Origin: a virus | Length of the DNA: 34,678 bases | Direction: 5' to 3' (one strand) | Virus record (IMG/VR): IMGVR_UViG_3300004097_000023 | Coordinates: 1-34,678 of that record | In this document: piece by piece, positions 1 to 24,822 of the stretch | Numbering within the stretch: the stretch's first letter is position 1 | Layout: every line of letters starts with the position of its first letter | The notes under the pieces: generated by a model | Databases searched by the model: none | Told to the model about the DNA's origin: nothing | The model's input: only the letters and a program-made list of their open reading frames with translations | Program-made: the position numbers and the translations under genes

Positions 1-1043
1 TGTAAGATGTCTTTAATAGACCCAGACGCTGGGCGAACATCTTCAACCGGACGACGACCAGAACGCGTATTGCGTTTAGGCTCATCTTCTTCATCCCATG
101 GCGGTGCCATGTCTTTAATTGACGCACGTGCTTTTGGAGTCTTTATCTTAGAAAATGCATCGTTGTCTTTCTCTTCAACATCAACCTTTTTCTTCTGTAC
201 CATGTCAGACTCACTACGAACGCCTGCGTTACCCGGTAACTTAGGAATACGCTTACGTAGACGTTCAATGTCTTCAAACCCTTCTACCCATTCCATGTCG
301 ATCGGCTTAGCAGTAATTACCGCACCGAACTGTGTTACGATTTCATTGTAACGTTTAGCCATCTCAATGTAGTATCGTAATAGTACATCTAGGTACGGTA
401 CGGATGCATTAGAACCGTACGTGGTCGGTATCGTTTCTAACACTTTAGTAACAAGTGCACGAATGCCAGCTGTGTCTTTCTTAGGTATTACAGCACCCAA
501 TAGACTATTATCGCTATCGCCTTCTAAGACGTGGAAAGTTGTTTCACCAACACGTTGATGTTGCTTACCTTCGAAGTCTTTATTACGGGCGATATAGATG
601 CTAGCGAAATGCTTGCCTGCTGCGAACGTGCCGTAGACAGTTGCCCATGATTTAATAGCACCCGATTTAACGTCAGGGAATGCCGCTAGAATTTCATTAG
701 CAGATGGGTCGCGTACTTGTTGCTGTAGTTCTTTAGTCACTCCCACAGTCAGTACATCTTTAATAAGCGCGGCGAAGCGCTGTGATAATGATATACGAAT
801 AATGTTAGCTAATATGTGGAACGTTGGTGACTGTCCCATTAGTGCATCTTCACAAAGTGGGTGGAATGGATGTACCTCACTCCATTCATTTTGATCTAAG
901 TAGAACTTAGTCGGCAAGACTAAATCCTTGCCATCTACTTGTATCGGGTCTTCACTTTTAGTTGGCTGTAGTACGTGTCCAGCTTCACTAACTATTAGTC
1001 CAGCACTTTCTAATAGTGCCTGATAAAATTCTGTTGTATTCAT
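1..1043 (-). CDS. Unrecognised phage protein, C-terminus cut by the window edge
   Basis: The first 347 residues are visible (begins MNTTEFYQALLESAGL); the frame is open to the left edge. The ATG at 1043 overlaps the stop of the upstream gene as ATGA, and its ribosome site GGAGG lies inside the last codons of that gene, so the two are probably translationally coupled. The first ~270 residues look folded. The last ~75 become charged and low-complexity, with an acidic patch (WDEEDE), a basic stretch (KRNTRSGRR) and two copies of a short motif, SIKDM and SIKDI, about 35 residues apart. I recognise no family. The tail resembles, in composition only, those of the proteins at 1040-2653 and 10562-12385. 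Confidence 0.85.
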   Translation of the reverse strand, partial: MNTTEFYQALLESAGLIVSEAGHVLQPTKSEDPIQVDGKDLVLPTKFYLDQNEWSEVHPFHPLCEDALMGQSPTFHILANIIRISLSQRFAALIKDVLTVGVTKELQQQVRDPSANEILAAFPDVKSGAIKSWATVYGTFAAGKHFASIYIARNKDFEGKQHQRVGETTFHVLEGDSDNSLLGAVIPKKDTAGIRALVTKVLETIPTTYGSNASVPYLDVLLRYYIEMAKRYNEIVTQFGAVITAKPIDMEWVEGFEDIERLRKRIPKLPGNAGVRSESDMVQKKKVDVEEKDNDAFSKIKTPKARASIKDMAPPWDEEDEPKRNTRSGRRPVEDVRPASGSIKDIL

Positions 1044-2653
1044 ATATCCTCCAAGGATAACTTAGTAAATTTATTTGAACCTAAAATGTCGTCGTCTAGT
1101 AGAGACATGTTCGAGCGAGGACGTTCTGCGCGTGATCTTTCATTACGTCCACTACGTGATGTGCGTGTACTGGTACTACGACGTGCAGCATTAACATCTG
1201 TACTTAACGATATTGTTGACTTCGTATCAAACATGTCACGGACGGTATTGTCTACACATTTACGAACTTCCATGTAGCCATCTGCTAGTGAATCTGTTTT
1301 AGTAACGTTGTTAGTTACTATCGGAGCCAGCATACTGTCCGCAAAGGATGTAAAGACGTAACGTCCATAATCGCCATCGATTGTAATTTCAATAATAGTA
1401 ATGCCACAAACTTCAGCATCAATAGATACATCTACAACCTGATGTCCGTGATTACTTATTGGGTTAAACACTTCGCGTTTGATGCGGGTTTCAAAGCCGC
1501 GGATTAAATCACGATTCTGTAAACCTTTACCTAACATAGACGTCATGTCTTCGATGATTATATTGGAATCGCTACCTCTACTTTGCTGATTACTTATTGT
1601 AAATGAGATAGTGTCAATAAAACAATCTAGCATTACAATTGGAATTATGTGACAGATACTCGCCGCTGCTTTAACTTCTGCAGATGCACCAGTCCATACG
1701 TCAGACTCAAACTCACTAAAGTCATCGTTTAATGCCACGGTTGTTTTATCATCCAGCTCACGCATACCCATATCACAGAACGAGGCGATATCTTTAAACG
1801 CGAAACGGTTATTAAACTTGAAGTTACGGTCAGTATCAGCTAACGCGCGCAAGAATCGGTTAGAGCGAGTAGTTTGCATTGAACCACCTGCGGTCTCGTA
1901 CGCCAGCGTGTCTCGATTATCATCAATGATACCCGTGTCACGTGTATTTAGATTAGCCTTGGCTTCTAAATCTGACGTTATTAACTTATGTAGGTAATTG
2001 CCTGCTCCATTAGTGCGTCGGTCGTTAAGTTGAATACCGGAGTAGAATGAACTACGTGTATCGATACTATCATCTAAGATGTCATCGCCTAGTAAGTCCT
2101 CTCTATTCTCAATACGTGCAAAGATATCCGACGGGCGAATTAGCTTATCTTCTTCCCCACGAACACTTCGGCGTAGATCTGCTAATATCGTTTGCGATGT
2201 ATCAATTATACGTGTTACTGTACCGCGTGCACCGTCTTGGAAATCCTGTACTGTCGTTACATTATTTAAATACATCCACATTTTAGGGTCGATGTTGTTA
2301 CCGTGTGATAGGTCAGCGTGGTTAGTGTAACCTTGAACGATAGCACGAGTTCGCTTACGGTTAAACGTAGTCATGGGTTCCAGTTCGATTTGTAAGAAGA
2401 ATCGGAATCGACGCTCACCCATACCGCCGTCAGAGTCTATACCCGGTATGTAAATATCTTCCGTGTCGGTTGAAAGAGTCAATGCGTCTGCCGATACGCC
2501 TACAAAGCTATCGATGCTAAAGTTACCGCCTGTACGTTCAACCACATCTGTGATGTCATTTACGAATTGACCATCACGTTGCCATTCGAATGTTCTACGT
2601 ACTTGCTTTTCTAAACCACCTACTTCTATTAATAGTAGATCAATTAGTTTCAT
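1040..2653 (-). CDS. Unrecognised 537-residue phage protein with Ser/Arg-rich tail
   Basis: The ATG at 2653 is preceded by AAGGA with good spacing. The first ~465 residues look like a mixed alpha/beta fold with no catalytic motif I can name. The last ~70 residues change sharply to a Ser/Thr/Arg-rich, probably disordered tail containing STSTRTSRSGRNERSRAERP, followed by an acidic end (LLDDDILGSNKFTKLSLEDI). It lies 32 bp after the 527-residue gene and overlaps the next gene as ATGA, so all three belong to one operon. The Arg-rich tail could contact nucleic acid or an acidic partner; this is an inference from composition. Size and position next to replication and transcription genes suggest an abundant intracellular protein, but a virion protein is not excluded. 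Confidence 0.85.
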   Translation of the reverse strand: MKLIDLLLIEVGGLEKQVRRTFEWQRDGQFVNDITDVVERTGGNFSIDSFVGVSADALTLSTDTEDIYIPGIDSDGGMGERRFRFFLQIELEPMTTFNRKRTRAIVQGYTNHADLSHGNNIDPKMWMYLNNVTTVQDFQDGARGTVTRIIDTSQTILADLRRSVRGEEDKLIRPSDIFARIENREDLLGDDILDDSIDTRSSFYSGIQLNDRRTNGAGNYLHKLITSDLEAKANLNTRDTGIIDDNRDTLAYETAGGSMQTTRSNRFLRALADTDRNFKFNNRFAFKDIASFCDMGMRELDDKTTVALNDDFSEFESDVWTGASAEVKAAASICHIIPIVMLDCFIDTISFTISNQQSRGSDSNIIIEDMTSMLGKGLQNRDLIRGFETRIKREVFNPISNHGHQVVDVSIDAEVCGITIIEITIDGDYGRYVFTSFADSMLAPIVTNNVTKTDSLADGYMEVRKCVDNTVRDMFDTKSTISLSTDVNAARRSTSTRTSRSGRNERSRAERPRSNMSLLDDDILGSNKFTKLSLEDI

Positions 2654-2685: not shown

Positions 2686-4269
2686 TTATGCTGTTCTTTT
2701 GTTTATCTTAATAAGTAATTCTGCAAGTTCTAGTTTAAGACTCTTGGCAGGCTTAAACTTACCACTCTGTTGTCTCAGTTCCCCGCTGAGTTTAGCAGAG
2801 CAGCTTAATACCCACTCTTGATCGGCAAACATTTTAGTGTATGCTTCTAACGCTTGAAGTCCCGGACACATCTGTCTACGTGACGTCGTTGCGCGTGAGT
2901 GTCGGTAATATGGGTACGTTGCAGCTAAACGTTGACGTACGTCGTTAGTTACTGTATCAAACGGTGTGGTTATTAATATTGACTCATGTGTCGCTGCCGC
3001 AGGGGCCGAACTCATAAGCACTGCTATGTCACGAAGATGCCAATGTATTAACGCGGCCTGCGTTATAGCCATCGCATGGATCATTGCAAATCTGTCGATG
3101 TGCGGTATAGATCTATGTTGTACTATTTTCGCCATCACCCACTGAACAATTATCAGTTGATCTGGTCGGATAGGCTGCGGCTTGAAGCGGTTAAATGAAT
3201 CTATACACATCTTAACTAGCGATGCTGGAATGTCTTCATCTAATGCTCTTTTCGCAGTACGGTAATCGTAGAAGTAGTGCTGCACTAACATATGTACATC
3301 ACGTCTCACTTCTTCGCGTGTTCTAAATGATTCAAGATATCCTGTCTTGTCTTCATCCTCACCACTACGGCTTGCCATTTTTGGCTTAAGTCTAGCGAAC
3401 TTGTCCTTTAGTTTCTTAACTTCAGTATCGATACGTTGATACACGTGTGTTATTAGATCACCCTCATCTCTGAATGTGTTAACTTCACGCACTGCCAGTT
3501 TGTTCACTACGGACGTGGCCAACAAATAGTTTGGAATATCTGATGTCCCAAGGCCTGCCACAACAGAACTAAGTATTGAATTCTTAGCCTCTTGCTTATG
3601 TTTGCCATTCTCAAACTTATCCCATATTGCATTGACAAATTCTTCAAGACGTCTAAAAGGCGGACTGTTAATTAGTTGGGTATTTGCCAACGTACTAAAC
3701 ATCTCCATTTCGTAATATACTTTACCAGCCTTTTCATTTGCCACAGTAGTCATGCGAGCGGTTAGATTCCAGATAGGAGCCACTGCACGAAGAATTATAG
3801 TGATGATAGCCAAGCCACGGTACTCTTCCTTTATGTACGTAGTCGCTCTAGATATCTTGTCATGGACTGTGCTGTCAAAACTTTCTTTAACATTGTCAGT
3901 TGAAATGACTTCCTTACCTTCCATGAACTTAAAAACATTATCGTAGTCGTGGTACGTATCAAGTAACTTAGTAATACCATCACGCATTTCTACGTGTCGC
4001 TCCGCTTGCGTTGGAGCTTCGATTATAGACTCAAATATGCTTTCATAAATAGCAAATATCTTATCTAACTCTTTTGTAGTTAACGTCTGCCAGTAACCGT
4101 TAATCTCTACGAAAAGCACATCTGATAACTTTCCTACATATTTTTCAGGTGTTAAATTCTTAACCCGTGGGTCGTCACTATTTGACTTCTTAGGTTTAAA
4201 TTGTCCGAAGTCTATAGTAGCGCCTTTATGTTCAAGCCACATCGTGTCTTTCTTAAGTAATAATCTCAT
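2686..4269 (-). CDS. Unrecognised 527-residue protein; possible extra RNA polymerase subunit
   Basis: The ATG at 4269 has a GGGAG ribosome site. This is the first gene after a terminator (4325-4350) and a candidate promoter (4301-4320), so it begins a new transcription unit. The protein is mostly helical and basic, with no recognisable enzyme motif; the last ~130 residues are rich in Arg, His and Ser. PhiKZ-type non-virion RNA polymerase has a fifth subunit (gp68) of roughly this size with no sequence signature, encoded not far downstream of the beta' N-terminal gene. Here the order beta' then, several genes later, this protein on the same strand fits loosely. That is only an inference from size and order. 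Profile comparison against gp68 homologues would settle it. Confidence 0.85.
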   Translation of the reverse strand: MRLLLKKDTMWLEHKGATIDFGQFKPKKSNSDDPRVKNLTPEKYVGKLSDVLFVEINGYWQTLTTKELDKIFAIYESIFESIIEAPTQAERHVEMRDGITKLLDTYHDYDNVFKFMEGKEVISTDNVKESFDSTVHDKISRATTYIKEEYRGLAIITIILRAVAPIWNLTARMTTVANEKAGKVYYEMEMFSTLANTQLINSPPFRRLEEFVNAIWDKFENGKHKQEAKNSILSSVVAGLGTSDIPNYLLATSVVNKLAVREVNTFRDEGDLITHVYQRIDTEVKKLKDKFARLKPKMASRSGEDEDKTGYLESFRTREEVRRDVHMLVQHYFYDYRTAKRALDEDIPASLVKMCIDSFNRFKPQPIRPDQLIIVQWVMAKIVQHRSIPHIDRFAMIHAMAITQAALIHWHLRDIAVLMSSAPAAATHESILITTPFDTVTNDVRQRLAATYPYYRHSRATTSRRQMCPGLQALEAYTKMFADQEWVLSCSAKLSGELRQQSGKFKPAKSLKLELAELLIKINKRTA

Positions 4270-4300
4270 TGTTCAAACTCCCAGTTATAACCTTGTTCAT

Positions 4301-4320
4301 TACTATAAAATATATTTGAA
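4301..4320 (-). promoter_or_regulatory. Candidate promoter, ATATTTTAT class
   Basis: The minus strand reads ATATTTTAT (4313-4305), 36 bp upstream of the ATG at 4269, followed by TG five bases later. The core recurs at 12468, 20105 and 24778, and as ATATATTAT at 26896. Here both flanking genes are on the minus strand, so only leftward transcription makes sense. The promoter role is inferred from recurrence and position. Confidence 0.5.
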
Positions 4321-4324
4321 AATA

Positions 4325-4350
4325 CTTTCAGTGGGCGGACCCACTGAAAG
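4325..4350 (-). terminator. Terminator hairpin after the SSB-like gene
   Basis: A perfect 11-bp inverted repeat, CTTTCAGTGGG and its complement with a 4-nt loop, starts 14 bp past the stop of the SSB-like gene. On the minus strand it is followed by TATTTTC, a weak U-tract. A candidate promoter follows at once, so it separates two transcription units. Confidence 0.75.
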
Positions 4351-4363
4351 CATCATTCGTTGA

Positions 4364-5062
4364 TTATGGTAAGTAGCTGTCTAAGTCGCCATCAATCATT
4401 GGAGCTGCTGCTGGGGCTTGTTGGTTGTTGTTGAAAGCAGGTTTCTGGTAACCACCCTGTTGACCACCTTGCTGAAAACCGCCGCCTTGTTGCTGGCCGC
4501 CTTGCTGAAATCCACCACCTTGGTTATTGTTGAACGCAGGCTTTTGGTAACCGCCTTTATTGAAGCCACCCATCGGTTTCGCATCTTCAACTTTGTAGCC
4601 TGCCTTCCATGCTTCGATAACCATCGGCTCGATTAATGTAGACCAAGCGATCGCACGATTACGTGAGAGTTCGTTCTCAGGAATAGGTGCACCGTTCTTA
4701 AGATGTACGTACTGGCGTTTAGGTAAGAATTCAAAACGTAACTTACCTTTACCGCGGTTATTGATTTCAATGTAAACGAAACCATCATCATCACGACCGA
4801 TAATGATTTCACCGTAGGTTGCTTCACTTTTAAGTAAACTGATCGTATGTGTTACAGGTTCTTTTGAACGAGCGGCCATACCGATGTATTGACAGAAGCC
4901 TTTCCATTCATCGATTGTAAGATCAGCATTTAACCACTGCTCACCTAAACGTCCTGACATCGATACGCGGTTATAACGATTCGGATCTAACTTTAGTAAT
5001 GTTGGACGTCCGCCGATTGGACGCGTGCGTAGTTGTAGTGCATTCTCGCTGAGATATGACAT
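4364..5062 (-). CDS. Probable single-stranded DNA-binding protein with Gln/Gly-rich tail
   Basis: A 232-residue protein in three parts. Residues 1 to ~160 form a compact basic/aromatic domain. Residues ~163-216 are a Gly/Gln/Asn-rich linker. The last residues are an acidic tip (MIDGDLDSYLP). This layout (DNA-binding domain, flexible linker, acidic C-terminal tip for partner recruitment) is that of SSB and of T7 gp2.5-like proteins; I see no clear OB-fold signature, so the call rests on architecture. The linker is symmetrical: GGYQKPAFNNNQ (about 170-181), GGGFQQGGQQ twice, then GGYQKPAFNNNQ again (about 203-214). The ATG at 5062 has AAGGA upstream, a TGTAGRCTA element lies 35 bp upstream, and a terminator follows: probably its own, strongly expressed unit. 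An unrelated abundant nucleic-acid-binding protein is the alternative. Confidence 0.65.
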   Translation of the reverse strand: MSYLSENALQLRTRPIGGRPTLLKLDPNRYNRVSMSGRLGEQWLNADLTIDEWKGFCQYIGMAARSKEPVTHTISLLKSEATYGEIIIGRDDDGFVYIEINNRGKGKLRFEFLPKRQYVHLKNGAPIPENELSRNRAIAWSTLIEPMVIEAWKAGYKVEDAKPMGGFNKGGYQKPAFNNNQGGGFQQGGQQQGGGFQQGGQQGGYQKPAFNNNQQAPAAAPMIDGDLDSYLP

Positions 5063-5096
5063 GTTGAATTTCCTTGATACCGGGTTTAATTTATAG

Positions 5097-5105
5097 TAGC
5101 CTACA
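5097..5105 (-). promoter_or_regulatory. TGTAGGCTA element upstream of the SSB-like gene
   Basis: The minus strand reads TATATGTAGGCTACTATAAA around this site. The 9-mer TGTAGRCTA occurs three times in the window, always between genes (also 15957-15965 and 21976-21984). Here and at 21976 its edge is 35 bp from the start codon. A promoter or operator is inferred. The core TAGGCTA is a short dyad, so protein binding is possible. Confidence 0.45.
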
Positions 5106-5139
5106 TATAGTAAACGACTGCGTAATAATTAACATTAAC

Positions 5140-5973
5140 TTACAATTTAATATCATAACGTCGCACAAATTCTAATAGGTTAGGTTCATGTGCTAGTTTG
5201 ATATCTTGGATGATTTTATCGTGCGTTGTTAACGCGTGCCATTTTCGAGCCTCACTTATTTTCAACAGGACACGCCGGATTGCAATAGGCTGTGCGGATA
5301 ACATACTGCTGTCTCCGAAGATACACAACATAATTAGATTAAAAGGAATGATAGGACCATCCTTCTTAACTGCTAATTTAGTATGCCATTGCTGCCTAGG
5401 TTTAAGCTTTCCGGTGTGTGATTCTAGTAATAAAAGATCTTTAAATTTGGTGTAAGACAGTAAGTCAAAGGGAAGATGTGTCAACATGACACATCTTTTA
5501 TTTTCACCCTCATGGGCGTATTTGATTATTGAAAAATCATCTTTTCTGTTTACTTTAAAGAACTCTATTGCACCGCGCTCGGTGGCTTCGAATGCTAATT
5601 GCTTAGCAGTTGTATTATTCTTGAAGTTACCCTCAGGAATCTTTTCACTTATACCTTCATATGTACATAGGTATACGTTAACTTCAGTCTGTGCGTTCCC
5701 CGCACTAACTGACGCCATTATTGAATCCCAGTCAGACGTTACCACCTCGGCTATCTGCTCTGCCGTAAGGTATGGTTGGTCTGCGGACTCATATGAGTTA
5801 TACGCATTCCTAATGAGTGTGCGTAAGTTCACATAGATAACATCCATCTTTAGGATTGCAGGCGGCTCGACCTCCGTATCGAACTCACCTGTATTTGTTA
5901 TCCGCTCAAAGGCTAGAGAAGTACCAATAGAGGCACCTGTCCAACCTAGTGTTCTTTTATCCGTATCCACCAT
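5140..5973 (-). CDS. Unrecognised 277-residue phage protein
   Basis: The ATG at 5973 (MVDTDKRTLGW) is chosen over a TTG three bases upstream; the ribosome site AAGGTGG lies 12 bp from the ATG and 9 bp from the TTG, so the TTG cannot be excluded. The protein looks globular and alpha/beta. A patterned segment, VIYVNLRTLIRNAYNSY (about 47-63), and a basic segment, HTGKLKPRQQWHTKL (about 185-199), stand out, but I recognise no family. It follows the SbcD-like gene by 28 bp and probably shares its transcript. Position between a nuclease and an SSB-like protein suggests a replication or recombination role, by association only. Confidence 0.85.
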   Translation of the reverse strand: MVDTDKRTLGWTGASIGTSLAFERITNTGEFDTEVEPPAILKMDVIYVNLRTLIRNAYNSYESADQPYLTAEQIAEVVTSDWDSIMASVSAGNAQTEVNVYLCTYEGISEKIPEGNFKNNTTAKQLAFEATERGAIEFFKVNRKDDFSIIKYAHEGENKRCVMLTHLPFDLLSYTKFKDLLLLESHTGKLKPRQQWHTKLAVKKDGPIIPFNLIMLCIFGDSSMLSAQPIAIRRVLLKISEARKWHALTTHDKIIQDIKLAHEPNLLEFVRRYDIKL

Positions 5974-8945: not shown

Positions 8946-10475
8946 TTAAATAGAGTGGTGTGTTAAGTAGTTATTAACCATCGTAGTAATCTCTGGATGG
9001 AATGTAATATGTCCGGCAACTGCGTTTGGTCGGTCTACATCCATTATGTTTAAGTGTGATGCCCATCGTTCGAACTGTCGTTTTTCAACGTTGTCTATAG
9101 GTAGACGTACTTGTAACATATCTCCATCGAAATCCGCATTCGGATCTTTGATAGCTAACACTGATAACATTATTGCGTTGTTATGTATATCGTCATGAAC
9201 TTTTGTTATTCTGAAGTATTGATTGGAACCGCGGCGCAACGTAGGATTACGCAGCATAGATACCGGATACCCACCTTCAGGACATTCACTAATTATTTCT
9301 TTCAGTATTCCTGATATTACCGGGCACCATTTAACAGTGCCTCTATCGATAATTCTGCCAATCTCTTTTGGATTATGGCCCATACGCAGTAATTTACTGG
9401 CGATATGCACTGAGAAGATAGTTACAGACCAAGCCCACGGCGTGTGTATCTCATCATAAGCGTGCTCCATAGCTAGCGGTGCGATTACTGCACGACCTGT
9501 ATAGAATCCACGAGTACTGCCTAATTGCCCACGGAACATACCTGTCTTACCAGAACATGTTTTACTATAGTAGTGTGAGAAATAAGCACCCATTGATTTT
9601 ATTACTTTAACCGTTTCTGCCTGCACCACTTTAAAACTTGGTTTAGTGGAACGCGTTTCTAATGACGCAATAGTCTTAGGTGCATCAAATGCATCTTTCA
9701 TATTAGGGTCAATAAATTCGGCAGTGCCTCCACGTTCAGAAACCATGATAAGTTTAGACGGGAATGGCAGGTATCTAGTAAATACACAATCACGATAAAG
9801 CTCAATGAATTGGGCAAACCGTTTACAGGTATAAATGGCAGCAGCGACCGTAGTGTACTTATAAGTGAATAGTTTAGGATTCTGTATAAATAGCAGGTCT
9901 ATGATTCTGTCAAAGTTATTCTGGAAATAGTTTAGGCCACGTGATATTTTATTCTCGCTTAAGAATGTGATTAATCGTTCTATCTCTACTCGACCACCGC
10001 GATAATTGTTTGGCTTGTTAACAACGTATGTTGGATTGGTTAAGTATTCAATTAAATCAAAGTGTGTATGTTTGAAGTATGTACTGAACAATTGGTATAT
10101 GCGCGGATGTATAAATGCGTTAACTCGTTTAGGTACTCGCATCCATACTTGAGGCACTAGTGGTTGATTTATAATACTCTTTACTTCAGTATTACATACC
10201 TGACACTTAATCGGATTAACAGGGTCATAATTAAATGCACCTGTAGTACAACCCTTTTCACAGGACGGGACGGTGTTTAACTTGTCACTATCATAACTTA
10301 CTCGAATAAGATCATTAATAACATCTATCGTTTTACCTACGCTGAACTCATCAGCCACATCGTTTATGATGATAGGTGCTATCTTTAGATTCTTAAAGTC
10401 TTTTTCCAGTGAGTATATGTCTAAGCTAATGCCGTTCTCTTCTGCTACTTCGTTGCTATTATCCGTTTGAGCCAT
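8946..10475 (-). CDS. Phage multisubunit RNA polymerase, beta' N-terminal subunit
   Basis: The protein carries the beta' catalytic motif NADFDGD (about residues 446-452), whose three Asp residues bind the active-site magnesium. Upstream are GMFRGQLGSTRGFYTGRAVI, matching the beta' segment that ends in the SGRSVI-type motif, and RNPTLRRGSNQ, matching the RAPTLHR region. A zinc-ribbon pattern, C-x3-C-x14-C-x2-C, lies at about 72-94. The chain stops only ~55 residues past NADFDGD, so the trigger-loop half must be another gene: the split beta' of phiKZ-type phages. Its 509 residues fit the non-virion polymerase subunit (phiKZ gp55), though the virion form cannot be excluded. I prefer the ATG at 10475, with GGGAGA seven bases upstream, over a TTG at 10490. 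Confidence 0.92.
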   Translation of the reverse strand: MAQTDNSNEVAEENGISLDIYSLEKDFKNLKIAPIIINDVADEFSVGKTIDVINDLIRVSYDSDKLNTVPSCEKGCTTGAFNYDPVNPIKCQVCNTEVKSIINQPLVPQVWMRVPKRVNAFIHPRIYQLFSTYFKHTHFDLIEYLTNPTYVVNKPNNYRGGRVEIERLITFLSENKISRGLNYFQNNFDRIIDLLFIQNPKLFTYKYTTVAAAIYTCKRFAQFIELYRDCVFTRYLPFPSKLIMVSERGGTAEFIDPNMKDAFDAPKTIASLETRSTKPSFKVVQAETVKVIKSMGAYFSHYYSKTCSGKTGMFRGQLGSTRGFYTGRAVIAPLAMEHAYDEIHTPWAWSVTIFSVHIASKLLRMGHNPKEIGRIIDRGTVKWCPVISGILKEIISECPEGGYPVSMLRNPTLRRGSNQYFRITKVHDDIHNNAIMLSVLAIKDPNADFDGDMLQVRLPIDNVEKRQFERWASHLNIMDVDRPNAVAGHITFHPEITTMVNNYLTHHSI

Positions 10476-10508
10476 GTTTTTATCTCCCAAAATAAAAATA
10501 CATATACG

Positions 10509-10536
10509 AAAAAAATAGGGGTGCAGAGCACCCCTA
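10509..10536 (-). terminator. Strong rho-independent terminator after the 607-residue gene
   Basis: A perfect 9-bp stem, TAGGGGTGC with GCACCCCTA and a 3-nt loop, is followed on the minus strand by seven T residues. It sits 26 bp past the stop at 10562 and only 34 bp before the polymerase subunit start, so the upstream gene is probably transcribed alone, with limited read-through. Confidence 0.9.
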
Positions 10537-10561
10537 GTTAGTTGTTGTTACCTAATCAAGC

Positions 10562-12385
10562 TTAACGGTAACGTGAAGATAGACCTACGTTACGGTTAGA
10601 ACTGTGGCGACGACGTTGGTTACCTAATGGTGATGTAGATAGACCAGCAGTTGTACGACGTCCAGTATTGCGACGGCCGCCACGATTACTTAGCTCAACA
10701 TTGCTGTCAAGTTCCATACCCAAACCAGAATCGCCATGCTTAACAGATTCTGCAAGACCTTGTAGGAATTCTGGGTTGATGTACAGCTTAGTACCGAAAC
10801 CTTTAAGTTTAAATTGACCATCAGTGACAAGATTTAAGATGGCAATCATTTTACTCATTGACTCTTCGTGGTTAAATTCACGATCGTCAATTTGTACGAT
10901 TTCGAAGTAATCATCTAACTTCTCAGGGTAGTTATCCTTAAGCGTGTTCATGATGTGTAATGTATCGATCTCTTCGATTGGGCGATTGCCGTCCGCAGTA
11001 GTGTAGTAACCTACAGGTACACGGATTTGACCAGAGATAACATCACTTGAGCGTTGAACGATCATGACGTCGTCACTTACGCCGTCAGTAAGGTTAGACA
11101 ATACTTTAACTAGCTTATCAACCGCAGTTAAATCACCATCAGCCACATCTAATAGCAACTTCTGTGTAGCGTAACCAAGAGTACTTTCATTGATTAGTAC
11201 AGCGAACTCAACTGGGATGTTGCGGCTGCGTTCTGTACGGTAAAGTACTTTACGTAACCAGTTAGCCGATTCAGTTGGATCTTCATCTACCAAATTAATG
11301 TCAGAAGGGATTTCATTGTTCGGCCAGAACATACCGTAAGCTAGACCGCTCAATTTAGCATGCGAGTTATGCATGTTACTTTCGAACTGCTTCATCCACA
11401 AGTCGTTGTCTTTTAGGAACATCATTGCTGCTAGACCTAAGAAGAAACGCTCGAAGTTACCAGAGGTAACATCTTGGTGGTATGGGTTAGATTGAGTCAT
11501 CACCACTTCTGGGATGTATGTCGCAGGATCAAAATCTTGGTCGCGGTCAGGCAGTTCGTTACCTACCCAGCGTGCATTTACGAACGCGTCAATCTCTAAC
11601 AACGTACGTGAACCGCTAGATGCTCGGATTTGTGAAACGTTCTTTTCACGGAAAGTTTCAGAGATTGCAATTTGTAGATCACTACGTAATGGCATGCCAC
11701 CTAAAGTTACGGCTTCTTCATTCGGAGTGAATGTAAGCTTAGCACGTAAGCTAGAATTTTGTGCTAGCATTTCAGCACTGAATGGTTCATCCACATTTGC
11801 AATAAGGATGTTGCTATCTTCAGCATCGCATGCCAACATTTGTACTGTCTCAGCAGCAGAAAGATCTACTTCTACAGGCACTACTGTTGCGTTAGTGAAG
11901 TACAGTTGACCTGAAACTTCGACAGTGTTTAAAATCCAATCTTCAAAGTCTTTAACCAACTCATCAGTAATAGCATCTGACGTTGATTCGAAGTTGAATA
12001 TTTTCTCTTCACGTGTACCGCGACGACTGCGGTCTTTAACTTCTTCCATCGCAACTGGAGTGATTGAAGATTCAAACACAAGAAGATGCCACATTAAATC
12101 AGCATCTACGCGGTTAGCGTGGATAACAAAACCGTATGAGTCAGATAAATCACGCGCTAAGTCGTTATCAGGCATGATGATAATCGTCTCAGTGTCGTTG
12201 TTCTCTTCCAAGAACTCTTTTACTTGTTTAGTGTACTCAGTAGCGCGACCTTTCTTTGCAGAGCTAGGCGTGAACGAGCGAGAGAACTTACCACGAGCTG
12301 GTGGTGGTGGCGGTGTTTTAGATTCAGCACGTTTCTTCATTACTGGTTCTTTTGGTGCATTTGTTTTATCGTTAGCGTTGAACAT
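10562..12385 (-). CDS. Candidate phage nuclear shell protein (chimallin-like), 607 residues
   Basis: Residues 1 to ~50 are basic and proline-rich (KTPPPPPARGKFSRSF), residues ~50-555 form a large folded alpha/beta core, and ~560-607 are an Arg/Ser/Gly-rich disordered tail (GGRRNTGRR, NQRRRHSSNR). No enzyme motif is visible. In phiKZ the nucleus shell protein gene (gp54) lies directly before the non-virion polymerase beta' gene (gp55); here this gene directly precedes the matching subunit on the same strand. Chimallins are of similar length, with flexible N- and C-terminal segments that join subunits. The gene stands alone between a candidate promoter and a strong terminator and uses many CGT and GGT codons, as expected for an abundant product. 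I infer the identity from position and architecture; I cannot recognise the fold from sequence. The ATG at 12385 has AGGA upstream. Confidence 0.5.
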   Translation of the reverse strand: MFNANDKTNAPKEPVMKKRAESKTPPPPPARGKFSRSFTPSSAKKGRATEYTKQVKEFLEENNDTETIIIMPDNDLARDLSDSYGFVIHANRVDADLMWHLLVFESSITPVAMEEVKDRSRRGTREEKIFNFESTSDAITDELVKDFEDWILNTVEVSGQLYFTNATVVPVEVDLSAAETVQMLACDAEDSNILIANVDEPFSAEMLAQNSSLRAKLTFTPNEEAVTLGGMPLRSDLQIAISETFREKNVSQIRASSGSRTLLEIDAFVNARWVGNELPDRDQDFDPATYIPEVVMTQSNPYHQDVTSGNFERFFLGLAAMMFLKDNDLWMKQFESNMHNSHAKLSGLAYGMFWPNNEIPSDINLVDEDPTESANWLRKVLYRTERSRNIPVEFAVLINESTLGYATQKLLLDVADGDLTAVDKLVKVLSNLTDGVSDDVMIVQRSSDVISGQIRVPVGYYTTADGNRPIEEIDTLHIMNTLKDNYPEKLDDYFEIVQIDDREFNHEESMSKMIAILNLVTDGQFKLKGFGTKLYINPEFLQGLAESVKHGDSGLGMELDSNVELSNRGGRRNTGRRTTAGLSTSPLGNQRRRHSSNRNVGLSSRYR

Positions 12386-12460
12386 GGTATTATCCTATGT
12401 GTTGTGGATTGTATTTTAAGAGCTTATTTATTATTCTTGGATTAGTATGTCCGTGAATAT

Positions 12461-12480
12461 CAAGTTAATAAAATATACTT
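12461..12480 (-). promoter_or_regulatory. Candidate promoter, ATATTTTAT class, in a divergent gap
   Basis: The minus strand reads AAGTATATTTTATTAACTTG, with the shared core ATATTTTAT and TG five bases after it. It lies 83 bp upstream of the 607-residue gene. The plus-strand gene at 12508 begins 32 bp on the other side, so rightward activity is possible, but flanking bases match the other sites only in the leftward orientation. Confidence 0.45.
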
Positions 12481-12507
12481 AAATAAATTTAGAATAGGGG
12501 TAGCTTA

Positions 12508-13569
12508 ATGTTAGATTACTTTAATGCAGATTTCGCCACTGCAAAAGGTAGAGTAATAAACTCTTCCTTCATATCAATTGCTAGTACTGTAATAAAAAAC
12601 CATAAAATCATTCGGGAACGTTATGTATCTAGCTCTCGAAGCGTGCCACCGACGAACTTGGTCTATAAACTACTGAGTGGGTTGGTGCTTAATAAAGAAA
12701 TGCTCTCTGGCAATTTCGATTACATTATAAGAGATCGTGCAAGAAGACTTGCTACCTCTTTAGATGTGACCTCACCGTCCAGTTACGGAACAGTCTTCAC
12801 CGATACCTTTTTAAATGGTGGCAATGAAGCTATTATGTTTACTTACGAGAAGTATGATAAAGAGAAGTGGGAAGACATGTCTCCTATTACCTTCGCCTAT
12901 CATACAAGTACAAATGTCAACTATCAATTGGGCACCTCTAACGATGATACTGCTTTTGCGTTTGTCGTTATCAATGTGCCTATGTTAGCGTATCAGTACT
13001 TACAGTGGGCTAACTGGCGTAGTCTTAACGGTGTAGAAGAGAACATCTACAATTTCATTAAGAAGTACCCGTTATTTAATAGTCTAAAATCCTACATGGA
13101 CATTAGCTTATTTAATCGTCATTACTACAGAGTCGTTGGAAATACAATACCTGAAGATGATCGTGTTAATGAATATCCAATACCTGATATTGAAAACAGA
13201 CTTAATAAAACGACTGTTGATACTGTCAATTCATTATTCGGTAAATCTACGACCATCGGTTCTGCATTATACGCGACCCGCCTATTCTTTAAAGATAGTG
13301 CTTTAGATCTAATCGAGCCAATACCTACAATATACACCCAACAGGTTAGTTGGTTTTTACTTGCATGTAAGATGCCTTTCTTACACTACGGGTTATCCGT
13401 AGGGTATAGTTCGGGTGTTTCATTGGATAGTAAAGTGTTGTCTACTATGCAACGTGAGTTGCGTGCTTTCATAAACAGCCGCACATTGTCCCACGTGCCT
13501 AAGCACATGAAAGTTCATATAATAGACAACTACTTGGAGAATTTGTTAATCCTCGCCGACGAGTTCTGA
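12508..13569 (+). CDS. Unrecognised 353-residue phage protein
   Basis: The ATG at 12508 follows AGGGG. It is one of three complete larger genes on the plus strand. The protein is rich in Tyr, Phe and Asn and looks globular, without signal peptide, membrane segment or known motif. Its last 24 bases overlap the end of the convergent DNA polymerase gene, so no separate terminator fits between them. Composition would suit a virion protein, but nothing else supports that. It is transcribed divergently from the 607-residue gene. Confidence 0.83.
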   Translation: MLDYFNADFATAKGRVINSSFISIASTVIKNHKIIRERYVSSSRSVPPTNLVYKLLSGLVLNKEMLSGNFDYIIRDRARRLATSLDVTSPSSYGTVFTDTFLNGGNEAIMFTYEKYDKEKWEDMSPITFAYHTSTNVNYQLGTSNDDTAFAFVVINVPMLAYQYLQWANWRSLNGVEENIYNFIKKYPLFNSLKSYMDISLFNRHYYRVVGNTIPEDDRVNEYPIPDIENRLNKTTVDTVNSLFGKSTTIGSALYATRLFFKDSALDLIEPIPTIYTQQVSWFLLACKMPFLHYGLSVGYSSGVSLDSKVLSTMQRELRAFINSRTLSHVPKHMKVHIIDNYLENLLILADEF

Positions 13570-15720
13570 TGGCTCAATGTCAATTGGGTCACCATAATAA
13601 TCGGATACAAGCTTCGTTCTGTTCTTATCAATCATCATTACTTTAAAACATTCTAGGATGTGGTAGTATGGTTCAACTGATGAAAAGATAATACGTCGGT
13701 ACGCTGCAATATCTAATATCTCTTTAGGTATTCCATTGTTAGCCACAACACTCTCAGGCAGTAACAATTGTGTGAACTTGCGTTTGGGGAATCGTTTATG
13801 CCATTCCTCTATACGTCCTGCAAGCTCTCTATCAGCCATCGACGCTATCCAGTCTTTTATCTGTGTCTTATTGTTAAGATTAACAGCTATCTTAACTACT
13901 GCGTATGATGGTGCTCCTGCAGTACCATACTTAGGGCCAAATGTTGTTTCCCACCAGTCCCAATATGCATAACTAGACGATTCAGGTATTGAGTATGCTG
14001 ATTTATCCTTAATCTGTCCAGTCTTAAGATAGATGAAGTCACCGCTCTGAACTGACGCTACAATGCTGTGTTCAATCTCAGCCACGTGTTCTAACAGTGG
14101 AACTATCTCGATATCGTTTCCTAGCATAACGGTAGTTGAAAGCTCTTTGATAACCTTTCTGAACTTTGTCATGATAGTAGCAGGAATATTAGATGTACGT
14201 AACGCAACCCCTTTTACTTCTAACTCAGGATCCTTGTATAGGGTTCCCTCTTGTGAGGTTATGAGCGAGAAGTAATGCTTTGCTTTATTTGTCAATGCAA
14301 ATGAGCTAAACTTAAACTCGTTCTTCATCGTGTAGCGATGCAGGTACGTATCTTCAACACCCATCTGGATAGACATACTTGCCATCATGTGTCCGATGTT
14401 CTGCGTTGCTATGTATATCATAGAGTCTGCGATGTTATCTGCTTCTACGCCTGTCATTGTCCCACAGTACCATTGTGACCAGTCTTGCACTGTCGCCATA
14501 GTTGAGTCGGTGTCAGATACTAAAGACACGCGACGGATGGTGTCAGGGATCTTAGCGACCGATATTGGCACATTCCGTGTGTTCATTATCTCACGGATAA
14601 ATAAAGAGTACTCACCACAGGCATTATTGACACTACGCGATGTCGCCATAAGTAGTTTGTAATCATCGTAGTTAGCTTCTTTAACTTTAAATATATTACG
14701 AGGTCCTACTATATCAGAACGTAGTAGTGCAACTAGTGCTCTAAGATCGGCGGTGGTGTTATCTTCAATGCCTTTAACTTCATCATCAGTTGCAGGTACC
14801 GTTACACGTTCGATCATCTTCCCAAGCCATCCGCGAATTACTTCCGGATTGTACTTACGTACATGGTACAGGTCACCTATATATACGAATGCAGCACGTT
14901 GGATAGGGGTTAGGTTTTCTACAATATGTTCGATATGATCCATAGCTGAAGCATTGCCCCAGAATGGTTCGGTCGAATAAGTAATACATTCCATCGTTTC
15001 AGCTACTGTCGGATAGTGCATATCGTAATAATCCATACAGTTCTGGAATGTTTCAAACTCAGTTAATGTGCAGATAGACAATATATTATTTATAACAATG
15101 CCCGCCATCCAGTAATGTCTAGAACCTGCGAGCAGTTTTTCATTGTTAGCATTACCGTAAGATGTTGCAGTACGACATGTAGACGTCAGTGTTGAGTGCG
15201 TTGACTTATTGTAGAGTATTGTGTACTGTGATGAATGTGCACCAGACAATGCGTTATTACGTGTCTTAAATGAGTTCTGTTCATTCTTCTTATTCGATGC
15301 GGTTTGTTTATCACCGTTACTCATCGCGGTCATCATCTGTTTCTTAATGACGCCACGAGTTTTGATGTTCACGTCAATAAATATTGACAGTAATGATCGT
15401 TTAGTTTTGGCTGGTGTGTAGAATGTTAGCGACGGCGACGATATGATGTCGTTCTTTTCTATTAATTTTAATAGTTTATCGGTTTTAACTTGGATCCCAG
15501 TACGGTCACCTGTATCTTTATCGCGGATGTTTATATTGGCTACTGGTGCGTTCATTTCGAAACGGCCACCTTTTGAGAACTCGGTACGTATCCATTCACC
15601 GCATATCTCTTTGCTCTTTCCGGTTGCGATCATCAAGTACGTAAGTAATTGTTCCATATACCCTTCAACTACATTTATTTCTCTAACGTACTCATTATCC
15701 TTTCTAAGGAAGTATGACAT
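13546..15720 (-). CDS. Family B DNA polymerase, fingers/palm/thumb (C-terminal) part
   Basis: Motif B-like fingers: a helix with repeated Lys (TRGVIKKQMM, ~121-130) leads to FKTRNNALSGAHSS (~151-164), matching the family B K-x3-NS-x-YG signature. Motif C is VSDTDS (401-406), with the two catalytic Asp residues. After it NKAKHYF (478-484) and KGVALRTSNIP (503-513) match the KKRY and K-G-E-x-x-R-R elements before the thumb. Motif A (D-x2-SLYP) and the exonuclease motifs are missing, so the N-terminal half must be another gene outside this window. About 240 residues separate motifs B and C, far more than the usual ~60. The ATG at 15720 has AGGAG upstream. It makes phage DNA with its missing partner. 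The motif series makes other families unlikely, although divergence is high. Confidence 0.82.
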   Translation of the reverse strand: MSYFLRKDNEYVREINVVEGYMEQLLTYLMIATGKSKEICGEWIRTEFSKGGRFEMNAPVANINIRDKDTGDRTGIQVKTDKLLKLIEKNDIISSPSLTFYTPAKTKRSLLSIFIDVNIKTRGVIKKQMMTAMSNGDKQTASNKKNEQNSFKTRNNALSGAHSSQYTILYNKSTHSTLTSTCRTATSYGNANNEKLLAGSRHYWMAGIVINNILSICTLTEFETFQNCMDYYDMHYPTVAETMECITYSTEPFWGNASAMDHIEHIVENLTPIQRAAFVYIGDLYHVRKYNPEVIRGWLGKMIERVTVPATDDEVKGIEDNTTADLRALVALLRSDIVGPRNIFKVKEANYDDYKLLMATSRSVNNACGEYSLFIREIMNTRNVPISVAKIPDTIRRVSLVSDTDSTMATVQDWSQWYCGTMTGVEADNIADSMIYIATQNIGHMMASMSIQMGVEDTYLHRYTMKNEFKFSSFALTNKAKHYFSLITSQEGTLYKDPELEVKGVALRTSNIPATIMTKFRKVIKELSTTVMLGNDIEIVPLLEHVAEIEHSIVASVQSGDFIYLKTGQIKDKSAYSIPESSSYAYWDWWETTFGPKYGTAGAPSYAVVKIAVNLNNKTQIKDWIASMADRELAGRIEEWHKRFPKRKFTQLLLPESVVANNGIPKEILDIAAYRRIIFSSVEPYYHILECFKVMMIDKNRTKLVSDYYGDPIDIEPSELVGED

Positions 15721-20221: not shown

Positions 20222-21037
20222 ATGAACGCTATAGAGTACGCTATAAATAGATTAAAGTTTTCTGACATACCGTCGGAGATATTAGAAGACGGATTTCGGG
20301 GAAAAGAAGACCGTTACATGCGACGTAGAAAAAGTATTGATGCTGAGATACGGGATAAGGTTATTGACAATTTAATCAAGCCAGATCTTGATGCGGCTGG
20401 TGGAGTTATGTTATCTATTCCGCTTGATGGGATACCTTTTGATAAGTTGGAAGATTATAGTAGAATATACGTTATCCCTAGAACAAAGACGTTAGGTCGT
20501 GATATTGTTCAGGTAAATCGTGTTTCACTAAACGTTACTTCTAACTATTCTGAGCGTGTGCCCGGACAGTCGTCCTCCTCTTTTTCTGTATCACCCTTTG
20601 AAAGAAGTGTGCAGTCGGTCATTGCATCACATAGTCCAATCCCTAACATAACAAATGCGGAAGTAGAGTTATTAGGTGATAACGTTATTAAAGTTAACGA
20701 TTACCAAAACTTCTCTGCGGACATATGTTTAGAATGTCGCATCGGATACAGTGATGAGCTTATTGAGATAAAGAAACCTTATTACCAAGACTTTGCTGAA
20801 TTAGTGAATATTGCAACTAAGGCTTATTTATTCCGTGAGTTAGCACTTACCGTTGATAGAACTAAGTTAGAAGGTGGCCGTGACTTTGGTAGATACAAAG
20901 AGTTTATTGATCAATGGGCTGATTCGTATCAAATGTATGGTGAGTTATTCGAGAGTAAATGGAATGTCATATTACTATTGAATGATCAGAACCGTAAGCA
21001 GAAACACATAATGCATGCGGGACGTGTTAAAGTGTAA
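20222..21037 (+). CDS. Unrecognised 271-residue protein, possibly virion-associated
   Basis: The ATG at 20222 has an excellent GGAGGT site. The protein begins MNAIEYAINRLKFSDIPSEI, then has a basic segment (YMRRRKSIDAEIRDKVIDN), a Ser-rich stretch (PGQSSSSFSVSP, ~117-128) and a helical C-terminus with Tyr and Phe. The opening pattern, with a proline after ~16 residues and a segment such as VMLSIPLDGIPFD, reminds me of structural (neck or baseplate) proteins of large myophages, but this is only a recollection. It stands alone on the plus strand inside a minus-strand block and shares a bidirectional terminator with the gene at 21094. Confidence 0.8.
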   Translation: MNAIEYAINRLKFSDIPSEILEDGFRGKEDRYMRRRKSIDAEIRDKVIDNLIKPDLDAAGGVMLSIPLDGIPFDKLEDYSRIYVIPRTKTLGRDIVQVNRVSLNVTSNYSERVPGQSSSSFSVSPFERSVQSVIASHSPIPNITNAEVELLGDNVIKVNDYQNFSADICLECRIGYSDELIEIKKPYYQDFAELVNIATKAYLFRELALTVDRTKLEGGRDFGRYKEFIDQWADSYQMYGELFESKWNVILLLNDQNRKQKHIMHAGRVKV

Positions 21038-24770: not shown

Positions 24771-24790
24771 CATCTTAATAAAATATATCT
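24771..24790 (-). promoter_or_regulatory. Candidate promoter, ATATTTTAT class, in a divergent gap
   Basis: The minus strand reads AGATATATTTTATTAAGATG, nearly the same as the site at 12461-12480. The core ends 59 bp before the ATG at 24719; the plus-strand gene at 24823 is 37 bp away on the other side. Confidence 0.5.
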
Positions 24791-24822
24791 ATCTTTATTT
24801 GGAATACCCAAAAGGATCTAAC

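Follow-up and report, generated by a model that had tools for sequence, protein, structure and literature searches.

The chmA locus and its neighbours

The stretch of DNA analysed (34,678 nucleotides, the virus fragment IMGVR_UViG_3300004097_000023; hereafter the window) carries on its minus strand, at 10562..12385, a gene for a 607-aa chimallin or nuclear shell protein (chmA), assigned by profile, sequence and fold matches. The ORF opens with an ATG, with a Shine-Dalgarno-like AGGAT approximately 8 nt upstream. The next gene on the same strand (8946..10475) encodes the N-terminal beta' subunit of the nonvirion RNA polymerase, a phiKZ gp55 homologue (PDB 7ogp_A, E=8e-68; PHROG2987, 1.6e-149) with the NADFDGD motif in its translation. 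The ORF as listed runs from a TTG (8946-10490, 514 aa). As the TTG at 10490 runs into the ribosome-binding site GGGAG (10484-10488), the ATG at 10475, yielding 509 aa, is the likelier start. Unlike phiKZ gp55, which is broken up by an HNH-encoding insertion, the window gene is uninterrupted; the PDB chain 7ogp_A joins PHIKZ055 and PHIKZ056.1. The 7ogp_A match confirms the proposal of the sequence-only reading that the shell gene directly precedes the beta' N-terminal gene, as gp54 does gp55 in phiKZ. The same adjacency of chmA and a gp55-type gene is found in phiKZ, PhiPA3, Goslar, RAY, SPN3US, pTD1 and others.

On the other side of chmA lies an antisense gene (12508..13569, plus strand) homologous to the phiKZ head protein gp52 (BLASTP 9e-21), whose place and orientation are kept in most relatives, followed by a divergent family B DNA polymerase (13546..15720, minus strand; PF20286, E=9.9e-245). 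At least 20 ChmA-bearing phages (Chimalliviridae) share the order DNA polymerase, antisense head protein, ChmA, beta', among them pVa-21, JHP1101, Goslar, Eowyn, RAY, SPN3US, pTD1, Aphrodite1, BONAISHI, Moabite, OBP and N1M2, with small extra genes inserted in some relatives. This order agrees with published core genome blocks (PMC10299810). Two further minus-strand genes encode homologues of phiKZ gp68, a subunit of the nonvirion RNA polymerase (2686..4269; PDB 7ogp_B, E=9.6e-27), and of phiKZ gp69 (1040..2653; BLASTP 2e-22), the latter 24% identical to its phiKZ counterpart. The gp69 protein is PicA, a shell-associated nuclear protein importer (PMC11087766). A single 34.7-kb fragment thus holds the Chimalliviridae core genes for ChmA, gp55, gp68, gp69/PicA and the divergent polymerase, and the presence of PicA and ChmA in one window will be useful for studying importer-shell co-evolution. 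A region on the opposite strand, amid short genes (20222-21037), strongly matches Pfam DUF7484 / PHROG3179, to which no function is assigned; in pVa-21 and JHP1101 the same place is taken by an antisense gene of equal length.

Of the two transcription signals proposed from the sequence around the shell gene, the terminator is borne out. An intrinsic terminator on the minus strand separates chmA from the beta' gene (10516..10536), with a 9-bp G+C-rich stem (TAGGGGTGC-TCT-GCACCCCTA) followed by T7, and G+C-rich hairpins occupy the same intergenic place in JHP1101, pVa-21, Goslar, Eowyn and Wellington. For the proposed promoter, the candidate is a lineage-specific AT-rich motif. A block TTTAAGTATATTTnATTnnnnTGAnATTCAnGGA, located 65-98 bp upstream of the chmA ATG (12450-12483), is shared with both Vibrio relatives, pVa-21 and JHP1101, and contains TTAAGTATATTTnATT, common to all three. 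Within it, TTAAGTATATTTTATT (12467..12482, minus strand), conserved in the two relatives, is a candidate lineage-specific promoter element of the early, vRNAP type. A sigma-70 promoter type was rejected, with 23 matches in the window compared with 26.6 expected from shuffles.

Further copies of the core of the element, TATATTTnAT, lie 38-92 bp ahead of other genes in the lineage. In the JHP1101 stretch, each of the 5 sites is on the coding strand and precedes an annotated gene by 38-90 bp, with 0 on the opposite strand. In the window, the three minus-strand sites (12467-12482, about 4299-4319 and about 24772-24792) lie 45-92 bp before genes, and the one plus-strand site is not so placed. Similar AT-rich early promoters have been described in jumbo phages (PMC7598289), and the motif is a candidate virion-RNAP early promoter of the pVa-21 lineage, as judged from its conservation and placement. 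In phiKZ, Goslar and Eowyn, chmA is preceded by a different motif, of the TATATTAC type; indeed, the phiKZ-like TATATT-N7-TGA spacing occurs in the window less often than chance predicts (11 matches, 21 expected), in line with a distinct lineage motif.

Family, fold and domains of the shell protein

A profile search with the 607-aa protein matched the PHROG4795 nuclear shell protein family (E=1.2e-29, residues 100-560), the sole named match in PHROG, with no structural family found; no Pfam-A family matched. When searched against the PDB with phmmer, the protein gave a single match, the Goslar chimallin 7sqt (E=1.5e-7), the chain sequence of which is that of the translated Goslar chmA gene. 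When the three lineage members were compared, profile to profile, with nine further ChmAs, hhalign returned a probability of 99.8 and an E of 1.6e-29 over 477 columns. By tblastn, the window protein is 62% identical, over 95% of its length, to pVp-JHP1101 XKC19680, annotated as a putative nuclear shell protein, and to pVa21_208 of pVa-21. Identity to the compared chimallins outside this lineage is 12-17% over the full alignment. The product of pVa21_208 (AQT28149.1; 19923-21782 of the pVa-21 record) is labelled 'hypothetical protein' in GenBank; a gene filed in this way is now identified, and pVa21_208 is a chimallin.

The fold was modelled with AF2 from an 18-row alignment including the Goslar and 201phi2-1 sequences, giving a model of moderate confidence (pLDDT 61, pTM 0.68); single-sequence AF2 yielded no usable fold (pLDDT 31). 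Foldseek matched the model to all solved chimallins (E about 6e-19 to 1e-25, TMt 0.72-0.82; best values 1.1e-25 for 7sqv and 0.82 for 7sqs). In VIA, the solved chimallins matched residues about 42-564 with Z 28-30, while the next unrelated fold reached 7.7. Structure prediction, one of the checks suggested beforehand along with the profile search, thus leads to every solved chimallin, with other folds far behind; as known chimallins were present in the underlying alignment, the match is supportive and not fully independent.

The model contains the two-domain chimallin core, flanked by tails with lengths as in the chimallin family. The N-terminal tail (residues 1-49; 12239..12385, minus strand, as are all segments) is predicted to be disordered, has a net charge of +9 and a PPPPP run, and is the counterpart of the chimallin N-tail or NTS. 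It is followed by the N-terminal domain (residues 50-201; 11783..12238), delimited approximately by alignment to a solved chimallin, and the C-terminal domain (residues 202-559; 10709..11782; net -23). The latter has a GNAT-like fold: acetyltransferases including AtaT and NAA60 match residues 202-552 in VIA with Z 6-7.7, and a similar domain has been reported for the 201phi2-1 chimallin (PMC9365700). The Arg-rich C-terminal tail (residues 560-607; 10565..10708; net +9), the CTS1/CTS2 counterpart, includes GRRxxGRRxxAGLxxSPLG, conserved in three lineage members. With pLDDT below 50 at residues 1-45 and 561-607 and equal positive charge on both tails, the folded core with basic disordered ends described from the sequence holds.

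The 607-aa ORF is a divergent chimallin (ChmA) of the known family, from an uncultured pVa-21 relative; profile, sequence, fold and gene order all bear out the earlier identification of a candidate nucleus shell protein, with the family, the fold, the gene order and the terminator shown for this locus. That the protein might be a virion or head structural component, lying by chance beside the polymerase gene, gains something from the head protein homologue on its antisense side. Against this, the PHROG search returned the nuclear shell family and no structural one, and every significant fold match was a chimallin, making a head protein extremely improbable. Nor was a second ChmA found in the window record, and the complete pVa-21 and pVp-JHP1101 genomes each have one copy, at the same locus.

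The two closest relatives resemble the window in gene order, upstream motif, terminator, acidic core and Arg-rich tail, while approximately 35% of core residues differ and the C-tail is less basic in the window (+9 compared with +13). The N-tail is mostly unrelated to that of JHP1101 (12 of 43 aligned residues identical), and the PPPPP run occurs in the window only. The Goslar chimallin (7sqt/7squ/7sqv) shares the two-domain fold, similar length, synteny and both tails at 15% identity over the full alignment. In the case of 201phi2-1 gp105, phiKZ gp54 and PhiPA3 gp53, the fold (7sqs, Z 29; 8fne, Z 29) and the place before gp55 are shared, with 15-16% identity for the phiKZ and PhiPA3 proteins; unlike that of the window, their C-tails are nearly uncharged. 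The Vibrio Gorgonvirinae (pTD1, Aphrodite1) and BONAISHI have Vibrio hosts and synteny in common with the window, but belong to other branches of the ChmA tree and have a core of -1 to -8 without a basic tail. The very low identity to studied chimallins makes the window protein well suited as an outgroup when asking which features of the shell are essential.

Tail and core charge across chimallins

Solved chimallins form tetramers through the N-terminal segment. Their C-tail carries CTS1 and CTS2, both of which dock on adjacent subunits, with the C-terminal domain as the docking site of CTS1; deletion of either the NTS or the CTS abolishes assembly in vitro (PMC9365700). In the window protein, the two basic tails enclose a core of -46, and none of eight other window proteins is comparably acidic. 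In the three members of the pVa-21 lineage, the core charge is -46 to -51 and the C-tail charge +9 to +13, compared with -21 and +3 in Goslar and -7 and 0 in 201phi2-1, both faces of the shell of the latter being negative (PMC9365700). Arg and Lys make up 23-33% of the C-tail in the lineage, as opposed to 2-10% in Goslar, phiKZ, PhiPA3 and 201phi2-1.

Across 27 chimallins, C-tail charge was found to be anticorrelated with that of the C-terminal domain (r -0.89; contrasts -0.80). With the pVa-21 lineage removed, the correlation remained at -0.89, while that between the N-terminal domain and the tail was -0.12. Seven held-out ChmAs, fetched later, followed the rule in rank order (r -0.99), although the fitted slope overpredicts them and several closely resemble members of the first set. 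For all 34 chimallins, r is -0.86 (phylogenetic contrasts -0.79), with the pVa-21 lineage at the extreme. A literature search found no discussion of chimallin tail charge, which is not proof of novelty. The chimallin family itself is already known, and the window protein adds a divergent member; the charge covariation, a correlation, was the one unexpected finding.

The simplest reading of the correlation would be that the docking tail and the domain that binds it are matched electrostatically. As the hypothesis was formed on these data, the sequences are related and the solved structures come from outside the lineage, charge matching stays a lead. The covariation could instead be a statistical by-product of an overall-charge constraint or shared ancestry, with no bearing on docking: the idea arose from inspecting the same data, the lineage carries much of the link between N-terminal domain and tail, and several of the held-out sequences lie near fitted ones. 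Such a constraint sits less well with the finding that strong anticorrelation with the rest of the protein is confined to the termini, as opposed to internal segments, with the positive correlation between N- and C-terminal domain charges, with the persistence of the C-terminal domain effect both without the lineage and on contrasts, and with a gp55 control that gave no significant effect. We consider a by-product quite possible, while leaning against it.

Electrostatic co-evolution of the tails and the docked domain, with the pVa-21 lineage as an extreme of charge-driven assembly using Arg-rich tails and a highly acidic shell, is in our judgement close to an even call, falling a little short of it. 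As the C-tail is known to dock on neighbouring subunits, assembly in this lineage may be unusually electrostatic, and the combination of strongly basic tails and a strongly acidic core suggests that inter-tetramer docking is probably more so than in solved chimallins. Charge-driven assembly would predict salt sensitivity, and a changed shell stiffness or RNA affinity. The link between tail and docking-domain charge offers a testable rule for shell-subunit recognition, and might limit shell-protein mixing between co-infecting phages.

Probable shell formation and the pVa-21 lineage

Taken with the homology to chimallins of known assembly, the locus is almost certainly best explained as the chmA gene of an uncultured jumbo phage in the pVa-21 lineage of Chimalliviridae, the product of which would form a shell around replicating DNA. 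By analogy, chmA would be expressed early from its own promoter, with transcription terminated ahead of the polymerase gene. ChmA would then self-assemble in the cell, with tetramers joined into a sheet by the N- and C-terminal segments, and the sheet would form the shell enclosing the phage DNA. The flanking polymerase subunits would transcribe inside, and the PicA-type importer would move proteins through the shell. Nuclei have been shown in cells infected by two other Vibrio chimalliviruses, Eric and Ariel (PMC10587174); no imaging of a pVa-21-type infection was found in the literature.

Arg-rich tails often bind nucleic acid, and the high Arg and Lys content of the lineage C-tails relative to Goslar, phiKZ, PhiPA3 and 201phi2-1 would fit a chimallin homologue that makes no closed shell, with its tails turned to RNA or DNA instead of to neighbouring subunits. 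Yet across the family the charge of the tail follows that of the docked domain, a relation accounted for by docking but not by nucleic-acid binding; the core domains are also conserved, and the relatives have only one copy of ChmA. We therefore regard a loss of the shell as very unlikely. With ChmA as a shell protein, the nucleus-forming phages would gain an uncultured representative from a distinct lineage of Vibrio jumbo phages.

A PhuZ tubulin was sought with the phiKZ protein as query. No match was found in the complete pVa-21 and JHP1101 genomes, the scope of this comparison as the window genome is seen as a fragment, while Goslar, Eowyn, Aphrodite1 and BONAISHI matched with an E of 6.5e-18 or better. 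The pVa-21 lineage may be another PhuZ-less chimallivirus group. Pfam Tubulin_2 was dropped as a probe: it misses phiKZ too, and its negative in pVa-21 was therefore discarded in favour of the phiKZ query.

Scans of a genome-contig collection with the window ChmA and of a viral-contig collection with the pVa-21 ChmA found no relatives. A joint alignment of all ChmAs proved too divergent to scan a collection with. Two shorter contigs match the window at 99.9%. Another contig, IMGVR_UViG_2852743531_000003 (141 kb), encodes at 3717-5762 a divergent ChmA of 682 aa, which has the same synteny and groups with that of Burkholderia phage FLC9.
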